Source of the DNA: Lysinibacillus agricola
GTDB taxonomy: Bacteria; Bacillota; Bacilli; Bacillales_A; Planococcaceae
Length of the DNA stretch: 64,000 bases
Assembly: GCF_016638705.1 (NCBI RefSeq)
Contig: NZ_CP067341.1
Coordinates: forward strand, 3,599,501 to 3,663,500
Direction of reading: 5' to 3'
Notes under the pieces: model-generated
Seen by the model: only the letters and a program-made list of their open reading frames with translations
The model's database searches: none
Told to the model about the DNA's origin: nothing
Shown here: in pieces, positions 23,980 through 46,852 of the stretch
How the letters are laid out: every line of letters begins with the position of its first letter
Numbering within the stretch: position 1 is the first letter of the stretch
Made by a program: the position numbers and the translations under genes

Positions 23980-24771
23980 TTAGCTCGCCATCATATCAAT
24001 ACGAATCTTGTCAGCGATCATGGCGATGAATTCGCTATTTGTCGGCTTCGATTTTAAATGATGTACTGTATACCCAAACATCGACGAAATCGATTCATAA
24101 TTGCCACGATTCCATGCGACTTCAATCGCATGACGAATCGCACGCTCAACTCGTGATGGAGTTGTATTGAACTTTTTGGCGATTTCTGGATATAAAATTT
24201 TCGTCACAGAGCCTAATAACTCGATATCTTCGAATACCATTTGAATTGCCTCTCGCAAATAAGAGTACCCTTTAATATGTGCAGGAACGCCGATTTCTTT
24301 AATAATGGCTGTGATCGTGCTATCTAATTGATGTTGATTTAATTTTTGAGGTGCCGCAGGTTGTAAAACGCTTGTCTTTTTAGGAAGCATTGCCTTCTGT
24401 CCAGCACAATGTAAAATCTTTTGAACTAACTGATCGAATTCAAATGGCTTTAGCATGAAATAGGAAGCACCTAAGTCTACAGCTTGTTTCATGACATCTT
24501 CTTGACCAAAAGCAGTCAACATTATAACTTGAACGGATGACATTTGTTCATTTTGATACATTGATTCTAATACAGCTAACCCATCAAGATGTGGCATTAT
24601 TATATCTAGAAGTAAAATATCAGGTGTAAATTCCTCCAACATTTGCAAACAAACTTTCCCATTTGAAGCAGTTGCAATTATTTCAATTTCAGGATGCCCT
24701 TGAAAATACTGCTCCATCGTTTTTAATAACTCACGATTATCATCTGCAATCGCTACTTTAACCTTTGTCAT
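23980..24771 (-). CDS. spo0A: Stage 0 sporulation response regulator Spo0A
   Basis: A 263-residue response regulator. The receiver domain has acidic DD at residues 10-11 (IADDNRE), phospho-acceptor Asp in LLLDIIMP and Lys in MLKPFEFD. A linker and the Spo0A-specific DNA-binding domain follow ([20 protein letters not shown]). It is the master regulator of entry into sporulation. Three candidate 0A boxes lie upstream, consistent with autoregulation. It follows spoIVB as in other Bacilli. Confidence 0.98.
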
Positions 24772-25085: not shown

Positions 25086-25119
25086 AATGGAGCCGCCAAA
25101 AGGAAGCTCCATTTTTTTA
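25086..25119. terminator. Hairpin between spoIVB and spo0A
   Basis: AATGGAGC/GCTCCATT with a 12-nt loop. The T-run is on the plus strand, but the hairpin also follows spoIVB on the minus strand within a few bases. Confidence 0.6.
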
Positions 25120-26082
25120 TGATGATTTTTTTAACATTTCCGCTACTGTAATTGCAGCTCCCTTTTTAGGCTCCTCCACAAACATATGTGTAACTGCACC
25201 CACAAAACGACCGTCTTGAATGATAGGACTGCCACTCATCCCCTGCAAAATACCACCTGTTTTTTCAATGAGCTTTTTGTCAGATACTATGAATTCAAGG
25301 CGTTCATTTTCGACCTTTGTAATTTCAATAGAAAAAGTTTCCACCTTACTGCCCTCTATCGCCGTGTAGATTTCAGCTTTTCCTGTTTTTATATCCTTTT
25401 CATGCATAATTTCAATTGCTTTAGGCAATCTTTGTTGATAACCGTCTTCCCAACGGCCAAAAATTCCATAAACTGTATTTTTATCTATACTCCCTAATCG
25501 TTCCTGATGTTTTTCAATGGAGGATATTTTATAGCCAGGTTGGCCAGGTATACTTTTACGAATTTGTTGAATCGAAGCTAAAAAAATGGAGCCAGCATGG
25601 AAAATAGGGGCTTCTTGTAAGGTTGAATCAACAATTTGATGGCCTAATGCACCGTAATTTTTTGTCTCTGGATCAATGTATGTCAATGTTCCTACTCCAT
25701 CTGTTTCATCTTTTAAAAAGGAAATAACATGTTCTGCTTCTTGCTCCTGTAACTCAAGGGTTACTTCTTTTCCTTCATTTTTTATCGTCCATTTCTGTTG
25801 CCCTTGCTTAGCAACAGCTTGTTTGGCATCCGCAAGCGTTTTTACAGTGATATCATTTATTTTTTCAACAACAGCGCCTCCTTTCATCCACTGATTGGAA
25901 GCTAATAGCACATCATGCGCTACAAATACATGTGATAGCTGAAGTTGAATTCCAATTGCTTCGCCCATCGGAATAAGCTTTTTTGCAGCAAAAACCTTTA
26001 CGGGCATGAACAATAAAACGATGAGCATAGGCAAAATGACAAATTGACGCCAACGACGATACATACGACACCTCCTTTTCAT
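25117..26082 (-). CDS. spoIVB: SpoIVB serine peptidase (stage IV sporulation)
   Basis: A 321-residue protein with an N-terminal membrane segment (FVILPMLIVLLFMPVKVFA), a PDZ domain (about 55-105, GGAVVEKINDITVKTLADAK) and the S55 peptidase domain. The likely catalytic His is in GALGHQIVDS and Ser in GMSGSPIIQDG. It is shorter than B. subtilis SpoIVB (about 426), mainly before the PDZ domain. It is secreted from the forespore and triggers pro-sigma-K processing. Confidence 0.95.
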   Translation of the reverse strand: MKRRCRMYRRWRQFVILPMLIVLLFMPVKVFAAKKLIPMGEAIGIQLQLSHVFVAHDVLLASNQWMKGGAVVEKINDITVKTLADAKQAVAKQGQQKWTIKNEGKEVTLELQEQEAEHVISFLKDETDGVGTLTYIDPETKNYGALGHQIVDSTLQEAPIFHAGSIFLASIQQIRKSIPGQPGYKISSIEKHQERLGSIDKNTVYGIFGRWEDGYQQRLPKAIEIMHEKDIKTGKAEIYTAIEGSKVETFSIEITKVENERLEFIVSDKKLIEKTGGILQGMSGSPIIQDGRFVGAVTHMFVEEPKKGAAITVAEMLKKSS

Positions 26083-42297: not shown

Positions 42298-42792
42298 TTA
42301 CTCAGCTTTTACAAGGAATAATGGTTGTCCGTATTCTACTAACTCACCGTCTTTAACAAGTACTTCAACGATTCCCCCTTGAACTTCTGCTTCAATTTCG
42401 TTGAATAGTTTCATAGCTTCTACGATACATACAATTGTTTCATTACCAACTTTGTCCCCCACTTTAACGTAAGCTGGTGAATCTGGGTTCGGCGATTGGT
42501 AGAAAGTACCAACCATCGGAGAGACAATTTTATGTAACGACGGGTCGTTATTTGTTGGTGCCTCAGATGCAACTGGTGCTTCTTCAGCTTTTGCTGGAGC
42601 TGGAGCTGCCGCTGGTGCAGATTGTTGTACAACAGGTGCCGCTACTTCTTTTTTAGTTGCTACAGTTTCAGTAACAACAACACCATTCTTTTTTAACTTA
42701 ACTTTTGCGCCATCTACTTCATAAACGAACTCGTCAATTGAAGAAGAATCTACTAATTTAATGATTTCACGAATTTCTTGAATTTTGAACAT
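42298..42792 (-). CDS. accB: Biotin carboxyl carrier protein
   Basis: A 164-residue protein with an N-terminal domain, an Ala/Pro-rich linker (about 60-90) and a C-terminal biotinyl domain with the biotinylated Lys in [10 protein letters not shown]. It shuttles carboxybiotin between AccC and AccAD. It follows the spoIIIA operon but is isolated from it by a terminator. Confidence 0.97.
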
Positions 42793-42993: not shown

Positions 42994-43551
42994 TTAATAG
43001 TTATTTGCACTAAATTTTACTTGTACGTCATTTGCGCCTTCCATCTCTGTTCTTACCAAATAAATAATTTCATTCGCTTGAGCTTTTGATAGCTCCTCAG
43101 CCATAACAGTTACCGATACTTTATCACCATCCGCTCGTACAAACGCATCGGAGTAACCTAAAGATTTAATAAGCATTTCTAACATTGCTTCAGAGGATTC
43201 TTGTTTTATAAGGTTATCCATCTCGTTATAAGCCTTACTTTTATCTTCTGCTGAGTATTCTTGTGAACCGATTTTCTGTGTTAATTGTTGACGAAGTTGG
43301 CTTCTTTCATCACTAACTTGCATGCGCATTTCTTCAAATAAGTGACTTGGAGAAGATACTTCCTGTGTCACACCATCTTTCGTTGCTTCTTGATCTGTTA
43401 CACCAGTTACTGCAGTTTGCTGTAATGCATCATCTGTGAAAATAGTTAGACCATTAAATTGCTTTGCTGGATCAACCAAATAATACACTGAAATAACTGC
43501 TACTAGACTTAATAATGTCATAAACCAAACTGTTCTTCTACGTACGCGCAT
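42994..43551 (-). CDS. spoIIIAH: Stage III sporulation protein AH
   Basis: A 185-residue protein: an N-terminal membrane anchor (VWFMTLLSLVAVISVYYLVD) and an extracellular domain of the YscJ/FliF-like fold with the family region SSEAMLEMLIKSLGYSDAFV. It pairs with forespore SpoIIQ across the intermembrane space of the engulfed forespore. It is shorter than the B. subtilis protein (218). It is the last gene of this operon, one base after spoIIIAG. Confidence 0.93.
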   Translation of the reverse strand: MRVRRRTVWFMTLLSLVAVISVYYLVDPAKQFNGLTIFTDDALQQTAVTGVTDQEATKDGVTQEVSSPSHLFEEMRMQVSDERSQLRQQLTQKIGSQEYSAEDKSKAYNEMDNLIKQESSEAMLEMLIKSLGYSDAFVRADGDKVSVTVMAEELSKAQANEIIYLVRTEMEGANDVQVKFSANNY

Positions 43552-44013
43552 TTACTTTTCCTCCTTATTTTCCATTGGAACGATAATAATTCGATGAATC
43601 GGCAATTGCATTACTTGACTAACAACCGCACGAATTTCATTTTTAACAAAGATATCTGATGCTCCTTTTGAAACAATTAGTATCCCTGTTACTTCTTTCG
43701 TGCCTTGTTCAGTTCCTCGAAAATATTGACTGAATAGTTGATTGTCATCCTTCGTATCTGTCATATCTCCGTAATAAAAATAGACTTTTACCTCCCCAAC
43801 ACCTTTCATAGCCTTCAATGTCTGTTCAAGTTTTTCTTCATTGGTTTTCGGTGTTACTTGCCCATTCGTTGTATTCGTTTGATACATTGGTAAAATGATG
43901 AAAATTCCCACGGAGGCAGCGATCAGCATTAAGACTAAAAATGACGTTGTTTTTTTTGGTTTCTTTTCCACATCACTTGTACATTGCCTCCTTTCATCTC
44001 TTCTCTTTTTCAA
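43552..44013 (-). CDS. spoIIIAG: Stage III sporulation protein AG
   Basis: A 153-residue protein with an N-terminal transmembrane helix (SFLVLMLIAASVGIFIILPM) and the ring-building motif of SpoIIIAG with ...GVGEVKVYFYYGDM and GILIVSKGASDIFVKNEI. It is well short of the B. subtilis 229 residues, mainly in the cytoplasmic tail and linker. The frame starts at a TTG with AGGAGG 18 nt away; a GTG 13 codons later has AGGAGG at 15 nt. The start is therefore uncertain. Confidence 0.88.
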   Translation of the reverse strand: MKKRRDERRQCTSDVEKKPKKTTSFLVLMLIAASVGIFIILPMYQTNTTNGQVTPKTNEEKLEQTLKAMKGVGEVKVYFYYGDMTDTKDDNQLFSQYFRGTEQGTKEVTGILIVSKGASDIFVKNEIRAVVSQVMQLPIHRIIIVPMENKEEK

Positions 44014-44035
44014 GTGTATGTACGCTTGTTTCCTC

Positions 44036-44179
44036 CTATGAATTGATAAATGGAATCTTTAATAGCATTTGCAAAAATACTAACGCAATGACAAGTTTTG
44101 TGAGCGAGATTATTTCTTTATCTTCTGTTAGAAAAACAAATATCTGACAGATAAAGAGTATTGCCAATAAAAGAATCAA
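44036..44179 (-). CDS. spoIIIAF: Very short SpoIIIAF-like membrane protein
   Basis: A 47-residue product from a TTG start with GGGGGGAG 6 nt upstream, 1 bp after the spoIIIAE stop. It has two hydrophobic helices (LLLAILFICQIFVFL and LVIALVFLQMLLKI) joined by TEDKEIISLTK. Its place between AE and AG and its two-helix layout fit the N-terminus of SpoIIIAF, but the soluble domain that makes up three quarters of the B. subtilis protein (about 206 residues) is missing. Identity is by position and topology only. Confidence 0.6.
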   Translation of the reverse strand: MILLLAILFICQIFVFLTEDKEIISLTKLVIALVFLQMLLKIPFINS

Positions 44180-44180
44180 T

Positions 44181-45092
44181 CTATCTCCCCCCGGCCATAA
44201 CTTGCACAAAAATGATGAGGAAAAAACAAGAAAACATAAATGAAAAAGCAATTAGAAACGATACAGCACATAATGTAAATAGAGATTTACTAATATGATC
44301 TAGTAATCTACAAATATCATCAAAAGCAATTGGCTCTAAAATAGCTGCTAACAGTTTCAACGAATACGCACTGACAACAAGCTGAACTGTTGGAATGAAC
44401 GATACTGTAATGACCGCTATAAACGCAGTAATACTACTAATAGAAGAAGAAAATTGTGTCATATGTTGGAACATCGAAAAGCTATCTACTATAATGGAAC
44501 CAACAACCGGAATATTTTCCTCTATTAATTTCTTCACAGGCTCTGCAACAGCTGCGTTAACACTAAATGCCGCAACACCACTTGCTGACATTAAGATGAC
44601 ATAACAAATAACAGATGCAGAGACAATGCTCATAATAGTAAAACGAATCAATTCGGCAATTCTCGTAAACGAAATTTCTTTGACAATGACACTGCAAACA
44701 TCAAAAACAATGGCAAAAAGCACACCTGGAATAAGCCACTTACTACTAATAATCGTTAAGACTTGTACAAAAAAAAGCAAGAAAGGCTGCCAAGAAGCAA
44801 TCGCTGTAATACTGCTTGATAGAAGAAAGCTTGAAGTAAGAATCGGATAAAATGCAGTGAATATATGGGCGAGTCCCTGTGCTATTTCGTCTATTAATTT
44901 AAATGAATTCACAACTACAGGCCCTATTGTGGCAAGTACAATAAGAAAAAAAAGTATTCTTGTCCCTTTTTCAAATTCTGGTAACATCATATTAACAATC
45001 AAAATAATGATGACATAGCCACTCAAAATGAGCGTCATCTTCAGCAATAGAAAGAATGGATCAATTAAAAACGAAAGTATTTGCTCTTGCAA
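44181..45092 (-). CDS. spoIIIAE: Stage III sporulation protein AE, N-terminally short
   Basis: A 303-residue polytopic membrane protein that matches the membrane domain of SpoIIIAE (for example GVAAFSVNAAVAEPVKKLIE, ENIPVVGSIIVDSFSM and SAYSLKLLAAILEPIAFDD). B. subtilis SpoIIIAE has 399 residues. The signal peptide and extracellular helical domain of about 95 residues at its N-terminus are absent here, with the preceding spoIIIAD gene ending only 12 bp upstream, so there is no room for them. Confidence 0.9.
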   Translation of the reverse strand: MQEQILSFLIDPFFLLLKMTLILSGYVIIILIVNMMLPEFEKGTRILFFLIVLATIGPVVVNSFKLIDEIAQGLAHIFTAFYPILTSSFLLSSSITAIASWQPFLLFFVQVLTIISSKWLIPGVLFAIVFDVCSVIVKEISFTRIAELIRFTIMSIVSASVICYVILMSASGVAAFSVNAAVAEPVKKLIEENIPVVGSIIVDSFSMFQHMTQFSSSISSITAFIAVITVSFIPTVQLVVSAYSLKLLAAILEPIAFDDICRLLDHISKSLFTLCAVSFLIAFSFMFSCFFLIIFVQVMAGGR

Positions 45093-45104
45093 TGTCTTCG
45101 CCCC

Positions 45105-45482
45105 TTAGTTTAGCCGTTGTAAAATGGCCGACACCTCCTGTAAAACAGCCAAAAATTCCTTAAACCAATACAACAAAATGACAATCTTGACCCCATCATA
45201 GACAATGTTCCCGAGTACTTTATAGTTTTGTTCTACAAGTAACATAGACATCCATTGCCCTATATAAAAAAGGCTAGCACTTACCACAATGGCTTTCGCA
45301 TAAGGCAAAAAAGCTAACGTCTCTAGCAATTGCTTGATGAATGGCAATAGGAGTGTCGAGAACAACATGCCGAACAACAAAAACGAAAACATTACACTAA
45401 TTAGCGCATGGAGTGGTTGTATGACTTCTTTTATAAGCAATAATAAAAGCAGCATGATAACAGCTATGATGACAATTTCCAT
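45105..45482 (-). CDS. spoIIIAD: Stage III sporulation protein AD
   Basis: A 125-residue protein of about four transmembrane helices, with the family's LPYAKAIVVSASLFYIGQWM and NIVYDGVKIVILLYWFKEFL. Length matches the B. subtilis protein (133). It is part of the membrane complex of the SpoIIIA-SpoIIQ channel, 5 bp from spoIIIAC. Confidence 0.9.
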   Translation of the reverse strand: MEIVIIAVIMLLLLLLIKEVIQPLHALISVMFSFLLFGMLFSTLLLPFIKQLLETLAFLPYAKAIVVSASLFYIGQWMSMLLVEQNYKVLGNIVYDGVKIVILLYWFKEFLAVLQEVSAILQRLN

Positions 45483-45487
45483 TTACA

Positions 45488-45697
45488 CTACCCGGAAGAG
45501 GTCAGCCATTGAAAGAATGTAAGGATCTCGTTGAAAAATAGACGTAAAAATCGCAGTAATTCCGCTGTCATATATAAGTAGGCAATGAAAAATAGGAAAA
45601 ATGAAAATTCTTTCTTTCCTGTTTGATCAAAGAAAACATGAAGAAGCGCAACTACTAGTCCCACTCCAGCGACTCTTAATACGTCTTGTAATTCCAT
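45488..45697 (-). CDS. spoIIIAC: Stage III sporulation protein AC
   Basis: A 69-residue, two-helix protein (DVLRVAGVGLVVALLHVFFD and FFLFFIAYLYMTAELLRFLR) of normal length for the family (68). GAGGGGG lies 7 nt before the ATG. It is the first gene of the operon. Upstream there are only about 40 bp and then the terminator of the next gene, so spoIIIAA and spoIIIAB are not at this locus. Confidence 0.92.
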   Translation of the reverse strand: MELQDVLRVAGVGLVVALLHVFFDQTGKKEFSFFLFFIAYLYMTAELLRFLRLFFNEILTFFQWLTSSG

Positions 45698-45738
45698 TCA
45701 TACGCCCCCTCGTGTACAGCAATATATGTTGCTAACCT

Positions 45739-45773
45739 AAAAAAAGACCTCCATACATATGTATAGAGATCTT
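45739..45773 (-). terminator. Terminator of the nitronate monooxygenase gene
   Basis: AAGATCTCTATACATATGTATGGAGGTCTT palindrome (arms 45744-45757 and 45760-45773) followed by TTTTTTT on the minus strand. It isolates the spoIIIA operon from the gene upstream. Confidence 0.85.
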
Positions 45774-45791
45774 GGATATTAATGAAATTAA

Positions 45792-45835: not shown

Positions 45836-46852
45836 TTATAGTAATTTTTCAACGATGCTTTTCACAGAGCCTGTTTGTTTCACTAAATAGCTATTTTCGC
45901 CCATCCACATCGATAAATATTCGGCATTGCCCCGTTTTGCACTTTCTTTACGAATAGTTGTAGTTAAATCATTTTGCAATGGATATGGTGCGACAATAGC
46001 ATCCTTCATACGTTCCGTAAAATCATTGGCTAAGCCTCTTGCTGGTTTACCCGAAAAAGCACGAGTAATCGTCGTCTGCTGAGCTTTTGATTGGAGCACG
46101 GCATTTTTATAGAGCGGGGAAATTTCACACTCATCAGCCACAAGTAAAGCTGTACCAATTTGAACTGCCTGTGCACCCATTACTAGTGCTTTTTCGACAG
46201 CCTCTTTTGTGACAATTCCTCCTGCCGCGATAATTGGAATGGAGATTTGTCCTACTACTTGCTGAAGTAAATCGTATAAATCGATTAATTGCATAGGTTC
46301 AGTGAAAGAACCGCGATGCCCACCAGCTTCGCCACCCTGTAGAACAACAGCATGCATCCCCGCTTGTTCTACACGCTTTGCTTCCTCTAATGTAGTAGCT
46401 GTGCCAATAACATAAACATCGTTGTCCTTTAAGCGAAGAATGATATCTGCTGATGGAATGCCAAATGTAAAGGAACAAATAGCTACATTTTCATCAAGAA
46501 CAGCTTGCACTTGTCCTTCAAATACTTCCTTGGACATAACACTTTGCACAGGTGAAAGTCCTAGCTCGTCGTAAAATGGTTGTAAAGCCATTCGAGCCTT
46601 CTGAAGAACATCGATATCAATACGTGGCTCTTCCTGTACAAATAAGTTAACTGCGAACGGTTTTTTTGTTAGTTGTTTAACTTCCTGAATAAAGCTTTTC
46701 GTTCGCTCCCCATCTAAATAGCCCGCTCCAATTGAGCCTAAAATACCTGCCTCTGCGCAGGCAGCCACAAATTTTGGCGATGTTACACCAGCCATTGGCG
46801 CTTGAATAATTGGGGTTGGTATTTCAATAATTGTTTGTAGCATAGTATTCAC
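45836..46852 (-). CDS. Nitronate monooxygenase (NMO/2-nitropropane dioxygenase family)
   Basis: A 338-residue FMN TIM-barrel protein. IIQAPMAGVTSPKFVAACAE is at the N-terminus, the active-site His is in VLQGGEAGGHRGSF, and the phosphate-binding IPIIAAGGIVTKEAVEKALV is followed by GAQAVQIGTALLVADE. It oxidises nitronates such as propionate-3-nitronate. It stands where spoIIIAA/AB or yqhV would be expected between efp and spoIIIAC. A second, broken NMO gene is at 50768. Confidence 0.88.
   Translation of the reverse strand: MNTMLQTIIEIPTPIIQAPMAGVTSPKFVAACAEAGILGSIGAGYLDGERTKSFIQEVKQLTKKPFAVNLFVQEEPRIDIDVLQKARMALQPFYDELGLSPVQSVMSKEVFEGQVQAVLDENVAICSFTFGIPSADIILRLKDNDVYVIGTATTLEEAKRVEQAGMHAVVLQGGEAGGHRGSFTEPMQLIDLYDLLQQVVGQISIPIIAAGGIVTKEAVEKALVMGAQAVQIGTALLVADECEISPLYKNAVLQSKAQQTTITRAFSGKPARGLANDFTERMKDAIVAPYPLQNDLTTTIRKESAKRGNAEYLSMWMGENSYLVKQTGSVKSIVEKLL

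Follow-up and report, generated by a model that had tools for sequence, protein, structure and literature searches.

With moderate confidence, we propose from sequence comparisons that the spoIIIA operon of Lysinibacillus agricola would encode a remodelled, minimal SpoIIIA-SpoIIQ (A-Q) complex, most likely of single origin in the Lysinibacillus/Sporosarcina family and kept since, which would be ATPase-free and probably a passive conduit. Judged by sequence comparison, the ATPase SpoIIIAA, the GspF-like SpoIIIAB, the soluble domain of SpoIIIAF and the N-terminal domain of SpoIIIAE are gone, and SpoIIIAG has lost most of its beta-collar insertion. SpoIIIAC, SpoIIIAD, SpoIIIAE, a SpoIIIAF stub, SpoIIIAG and SpoIIIAH remain by the same comparisons, and an M23 protein occupies the place of spoIIQ in this genome. 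That the domain losses match one another speaks more for coordinated rebuilding than for decay. We take the family to be the Planococcaceae, since named Lysinibacillus fall within its genus and SpoIIIAG relatives are annotated as Sporosarcina and Viridibacillus.

In the window (the whole stretch of 64,000 nucleotides that was analysed), the operon spans positions 42994-45697, all on the minus strand, in the order AC-AD-AE-AF-AG-AH. The genes considered here are the following:

45488-45697, minus strand: spoIIIAC, 69 aa, opening the operon, with no spoIIIAA or spoIIIAB ahead of it
45105-45482, minus strand: spoIIIAD, 125 aa, strongly diverged
44181-45092, minus strand: spoIIIAE, 303 aa, without the N-terminal domain of about 100 residues
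44036-44179, minus strand: spoIIIAF stub, 47 aa, two hydrophobic helices, soluble domain missing
43552-43971, minus strand: spoIIIAG, 139 aa, membrane helix and ring-building motif, beta-barrel insertion mostly gone
42994-43551, minus strand: spoIIIAH, 185 aa, normal size
42298-42792, minus strand: neighbour downstream of spoIIIAH, which we take to be accB from its position and sequence
45836-46852, minus strand: nitronate-monooxygenase / FabK-like gene, flanked by efp and spoIIIAC (match below the cut-off of TIGR03151, E 1.8e-54)
23980-24771, minus strand: spo0A, intact (TIGR02875, 360 bits, cut-off 200)
25117-26082, minus strand: spoIVB, 321 aa (TIGR02860, 234.6 bits, below the cut-off of 305; profile positions 82-398 of 402)

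The initial annotation had placed spoIIIAC first, about 40 bp from a terminator, and this is what we see: about 42 bases lie 5' of spoIIIAC, then a hairpin with a T run (minus strand), which is the terminator of the nitronate-monooxygenase-like gene behind which the operon lies (about 45738-45775). It had also stated that spo0A and spoIVB are kept, which is true of an intact spo0A and, with the reservation that it is diverged, of spoIVB. The spoIIIAF stub starts with TTG, preceded by GGGGGAG, and an alternative earlier TTG start of spoIIIAG would give a protein of 153 aa.

Gene identities were established with family models and with profiles. SpoIIIAE exceeded the cut-off of PF09546 (E 5.1e-24) and stayed below that of TIGR02829 (51 bits), and SpoIIIAH exceeded that of PF12685 (E 2e-27, 96.8 bits, cut-off 30.6). 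SpoIIIAC was matched below cut-off by TIGR02848 (E 1.2e-7, 32 bits, cut-off 56.65) and PF06686 (E 2.4e-4), and SpoIIIAG only below curated cut-offs. In these model searches SpoIIIAD, taken by itself, had no credible family match, its match to FliQ (E 0.26) being treated as chance, and the SpoIIIAF stub, taken by itself, had no family match. We therefore rely on a comparison of profiles from the own family with those of an outgroup set, composed of operons taken from 20 further families in the class (17-18 usable rows per gene; L112 and L115 were excluded for a misread gene chain, and L105 yielded no AF-AH). Each of the six proteins pairs best with its positional counterpart (E 5.6e-12 for AC, 2.6e-5 for AD, 1.9e-21 for AE, 6.3e-5 for AF, 1.5e-18 for AG and 8.4e-37 for AH). 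For AD, the match covers 117 columns with an HH probability of 75% (next best partner, E 0.0078); for the AF stub, it covers 48 columns at the N-terminus of the outgroup AF with an HH probability of 64% (next best, E 0.048). As these HH probabilities are moderate, the identity of AD and AF rests partly on position and exclusivity. It follows from these counterpart-specific matches that SpoIIIAD, at the level of profiles, is present in this operon and that SpoIIIAF survives as a stub made of its two N-terminal helices. One notable cross-match, between the C-termini of AG and AF (E 1.6e-9), fits the ring-building motif ascribed to both in the literature.

The absence of spoIIIAA and spoIIIAB from the operon, already stated in the initial annotation, extends to the whole genome, a single contig of 5,285,903 bases (96% complete). 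The best match to TIGR02858 in this genome reaches 24.7 bits against a cut-off of 281 and is Rho, not SpoIIIAA; the best PF09548 match (14.4 bits) lies in a stretch with seven stops and the second reaches 11.4 bits, so that no credible SpoIIIAB was found. The alternative that the ATPase is encoded elsewhere thus received no support from the genome-wide searches. Within the GTDB order, SpoIIIAA was found in none of 261 genomes at E 1e-20, the B. subtilis control being positive in this search as in that of the own genome. None of the 261 genomes has a SpoIIIAB over cut-off, and of three weak PF09548 matches in relatives, one looks on reading like a tape-measure-like protein and another like a histidine-kinase-like protein, the third being an unassigned stretch. 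The P-loop motif, by the pattern used, was absent from the available sequence within 4.5 kb upstream of AE in all 58 family loci. The own genome encodes three T2SSE-type ATPases, presumably PilB-like, PilT-like and ComGA-like, two of them beside a gene we take to be PilC-like and one beside a gene we take to be ComGB-like; no fourth was found in this genome at E 0.001. A type IV pilus-like cluster (PilB-, PilT- and PilC-like by reading) is located at 1453698-1457098 of this genome, besides the ComGA/ComGB-like pair.

The losses within the remaining proteins were measured against the outgroup operons. Columns 24-290 of the family SpoIIIAE profile align to positions 122-393 of 413 in full-length AE, in agreement with the initial annotation, according to which a 95-residue N-terminal domain is lacking (about 100 residues are missing). 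The AF stub measures 40-59 aa in the 36 rows used and only the N-terminal 48 columns of full AF were matched; the soluble ring-building domain was not found in the family stubs by profile comparison, as had been proposed from the 47-residue protein. SpoIIIAG and SpoIIIAH had both been described as short. This holds for SpoIIIAG, whose beta-collar insertion spans 22-33 residues in 26 family rows and 65-67 in 14 outgroup rows (the pattern failed to measure 6 family and 3 outgroup rows), the ring-building motif being kept. It does not hold for SpoIIIAH, for which shortening is ruled out by the lengths of 172-193 aa in 39 family rows and 179-214 aa, plus one of 305, in 17 outgroup rows. Several genes and domains being affected at once, the suggestion of a simplification going beyond a single lost gene is well founded. 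AE frames of 440 aa in G058 and G060 were rejected as full-length AE, the ORF itself having only 299 aa, and the predicted AE model (pLDDT 68, best Foldseek E 0.13) allows neither fold nor pore to be inferred. For these profiles identical rows were collapsed, AE ORFs below 286 aa were left out (L052, L100, L089, L090, L139), as were L094, L098 and L130 for AF (script frame missing or wrong, stubs present by eye) and, for AG, ORFs of 110 aa or less plus L089, L122 and L139, whose AG was read separately.

The reduced operon is a fixed state of the family and not a quirk of one species. SpoIIIAE was detected in 193 of the 261 genomes of the order and in 13 of its 19 genera (all 213 rows listed belong to one family). 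All 58 family loci carry AE, the AF stub and AH, reduced AE and AF being common to the family; AC was recognised by a strict pattern in 52/58 and AG by pattern in 53/58, the remaining loci having a suitably sized ORF in that place, and two of the six pattern-missed AC loci (L083, L084) were confirmed by reading. In 18 loci the complete arrangement was followed one ORF at a time. An accB pattern lies behind AE in 55/58 loci; upstream of AE, the nitronate-monooxygenase-like pattern was found in 27/58 and the efp pattern in 53/58. The 58 loci represent fewer than 58 genomes (L052 and L100 share a genome, as do L042 and L099, and L084 and L085 belong to one). This recurrence makes a misassembly, which the initial annotation had considered as a possible cause of the missing segment, very unlikely. 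In a sample of 200 genomes of the class, SpoIIIAE occurs in 146, namely 11 of this family (67-102 bits) and 135 outside it (221-375 bits), and SpoIIIAA in 136, namely the same 135 AE-bearing outsiders and G301, with none of this family (lists compared by eye). In this class sample, no AE without AA was found outside the Planococcaceae.

Some individual loci deserve mention. In Lysinibacillus piscis KH24 (L052, L100), AE is split over two reading frames, with ORFs of 55 and 252 aa. Two different reduced spoIIIA operons (L084, L085) occur in genome G060 (87% completeness), either as a second copy or as mixed DNA. The family's most divergent AE is that of L121 (G015, genome of 2.7 Mb), which matches the AE of the window at E 4.7e-11; among the genomes listed for the genus of L121, three lack an AE match. 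Outside the family, SpoIIIAA of G437 (C1:3423311-3424131) was read in two pieces, owing to a break or an assembly error.

In the AE tree, the family forms one clade (support 100/99) separated by a branch of 4.19 + 1.03 changes per column, and in the AH tree it also occupies one side of a branch (98/88); only this one-clade result was used, the trees carrying long-branch warnings. The remodelling most likely goes back to a single event at the root of the family, which is the simplest reading and not a proven one. For AC, median identity is 0.72 within the family, 0.57 within the outgroups and 0.23 between them; the corresponding values for AccB are 0.64, 0.57 and 0.58, though AccB was represented by just five rows from the outgroups and EFP by one. 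SpoIIIAC, 72% kept inside the family versus 23% to other Bacilli, thus looks as if it had been re-specialised once for a new partner. AD and AE are more diverged within the family (0.27 and 0.32) than across the outgroups (0.60 and 0.48); AH, unlike AD, AE and AG, shows more identity inside the family (0.50) than among the outgroups (0.28). Within Lysinibacillus, the median dN/dS is 0.014 for AC, which is nearly invariant (17 rows, 135 pairs, after correction of L044 and L045, first taken in the wrong frame), and, over 19 rows, 0.090 for AD, 0.041 for AE, 0.095 for AF, 0.178 for AG and 0.058 for AH. Pairs with saturated or near-zero dS are omitted from these medians, and the ratios for AE and AH, whose median dS exceeds 1, are rough. 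These ratios indicate purifying selection on all six genes of the operon in Lysinibacillus, which are hence maintained.

SpoIVB, a signalling protease secreted between the two membranes, is strongly diverged in this family too. In the class sample, all 11 family matches fall below the TIGR02860 cut-off (142-250 bits) and all 134 genomes outside the family lie above it (334-590 bits); the unmatched N-terminus is by itself unremarkable, since some outgroups also begin at profile position 51-89. The M23 protein (231 aa) stands at the spoIIQ position, between spoIID-like and spoIIID-like genes and ahead of an mbl-like gene (neighbours named by reading). This putative SpoIIQ and a SpoIVFA-like protein (184 aa) of the same genome appear short next to their B. 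subtilis counterparts. No PF10646 (GerM) match was found in the own genome at E 0.001. Within the order, 59/261 genomes have a PF10646 match, 44 of them over cut-off (best 31.8 bits), some in genomes without AE (e.g. G022, G103, G105); the two that were opened among these 59 (L141 and L143, about 400-440 aa) look like anti-sigma factors, and L141 adjoins a sigma-factor-like gene. SpoIIM, SpoIIB and GerM have been reported as lost in Planococcaceae (main text of PMC7924749).

Part of this reduction is in print. In 2012, L. sphaericus C3-41 was described as lacking AA, AB, AD and AF, in a genome judged insufficiently reliable (PMC3533761, main text). In 2021, the absence of AA, AB and AF was extended to the Planococcaceae, the mechanism being left for elucidation; the Sporosarcina signature given there retains AC, AD, AE, AG, AH and SpoIIQ, AD was recovered in L. 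sphaericus, and the discussion also lists AG as absent in Planococcaceae (PMC7924749, passages of the main text). Unlike in the passages of these two papers, which both score AF as absent, AF survives here as a two-helix stub. To the question raised in the initial annotation, whether the reduction was already described, the answer is thus yes for the loss of genes, whereas the domain level was not found in those passages. The AF stub, the loss of the AE N-terminus, the loss of the AG collar and the stem-branch pattern were not found in the literature either, within our searches and main-text passages, nor was the SpoIVB divergence in the passages of PMC3533761 or PMC7924749. Against these passages, the gene-level absence is known and what appears new is the AF stub, the domain losses of AE and AG and the SpoIVB divergence.

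Compared with the B. subtilis A-Q complex, the operon keeps the order AC-AD-AE-AF-AG-AH beside accB, with homologous AC, AD, AE, AG and AH, and an M23 protein beside spoIID/spoIIID-like genes (named by reading). Unlike B. subtilis, L. agricola has no SpoIIIAA, SpoIIIAB or GerM match, its AF consists only of membrane helices, its AE has no N-terminal domain and its AG is without most of the beta-collar insertion. The predicted reduced AG is a bare ring-building motif like those of SctJ/PrgK (type III secretion) and FliF (flagella); indeed, PrgK, EscJ and FliF domains are among the best structure matches of its model.

In the arrangement that we propose, the mother-cell membrane part would consist of AC, AD, AE and the AF stub, and AG and AH, via their ring-building motifs, would form a thinner ring or tether meeting the forespore SpoIIQ. 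Small metabolites would cross by diffusion or an ion gradient, with no ATP hydrolysis at the complex. With the ATPase gone and, besides it, the GspF-like SpoIIIAB, the soluble part of AF, the N-terminus of AE and most of the AG collar, a passive or gradient-driven conduit, or a mere tether, would be simplest. The 'ATPase-free feeding tube' suggested in the initial annotation is compatible with the data, transport itself being hypothetical. The B. subtilis complex has been described, from dye passage, as a likely passive channel (PMC11695771, in part), and the Walker B motif of C. difficile SpoIIIAA is dispensable (PMC6934232). On the other side, mutants of the ATPase motifs in B. subtilis block sigma-G activity and spores, which counts against an ATP-free reading (PMC2703783, in part). 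Going further, a second stable design of mother cell-forespore channel, a family-wide ATPase-free and collar-less A-Q complex alongside which SpoIVB was re-tuned, is possible and we put it forward only tentatively.

Other explanations deserve to be weighed against the remodelled conduit. The complex might serve only as a tether or ratchet, an AH-SpoIIQ zipper with an AG ring, the forespore feeding itself or relying on other transporters for its supply; the disappearance of the parts for transport (ATPase, AB, AF domain, AG collar, AE N-terminus) would then follow from the loss of transport itself. The lost parts do include those closest to a secretion-system motor (AA and AB; PMC2703783, in part), AH, the zipper protein, is better conserved within the family than across the outgroups, the need for an intact channel is doubted even in B. 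subtilis (PMC12720343, in part), and purifying selection would fit a purely structural complex equally well. However, the membrane proteins AC, AD and AE, not obviously required by a pure zipper, are retained at the low dN/dS given above, with AC nearly invariant, and we regard this explanation as rather unlikely. We find it harder still to believe in a non-orthologous replacement, in which the complex would be driven in trans by another ATPase, for instance of a type IV pilus or competence system, or by a protein from some unrelated family. Three T2SSE-type candidates are encoded, presumably PilB-, PilT- and ComGA-like, but all three adjoin their own T2SSF partners with no fourth at E 0.001, and since AA disappeared in company with AB, the soluble domain of AF and the N-terminus of AE, the contacts for a motor have probably gone as well.

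Finally, the operon could be a degenerating remnant in organisms that are losing sporulation, or the gap an assembly artefact. This would be in line with the 68/261 genomes of the order without an AE match (6/19 genera have none), with the split AE of L. piscis KH24 and with the fast divergence of AD and AE inside the family. Against it, AE, the AF stub and AH are found in 58/58 loci with dN/dS well below 1, L. sphaericus 2362 (L044) carries AE, and L. sphaericus C3-41 is known to form spores (PMC3533761, main text), so that decay seems highly improbable.

The cargo of the A-Q complex and the purpose of its ATPase are still debated (PMC12720343, in part), and a natural family keeping the operon without the ATPase offers a direct comparison, in which the kept parts are candidates for the essential conduit. 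The parts lost together (ATPase, AB, AF domain, AE N-terminus and AG collar) may have made up a single physical module. An absence once blamed on an unreliable genome (PMC3533761, main text) becomes a family-wide state with domain detail. If this family does possess a second channel design, ATP hydrolysis in the B. subtilis machine would be a booster that can be dispensed with and not its principle, and the minimal conduit would be AC-AD-AE-AF(helices)-AG(ring motif)-AH with SpoIIQ.
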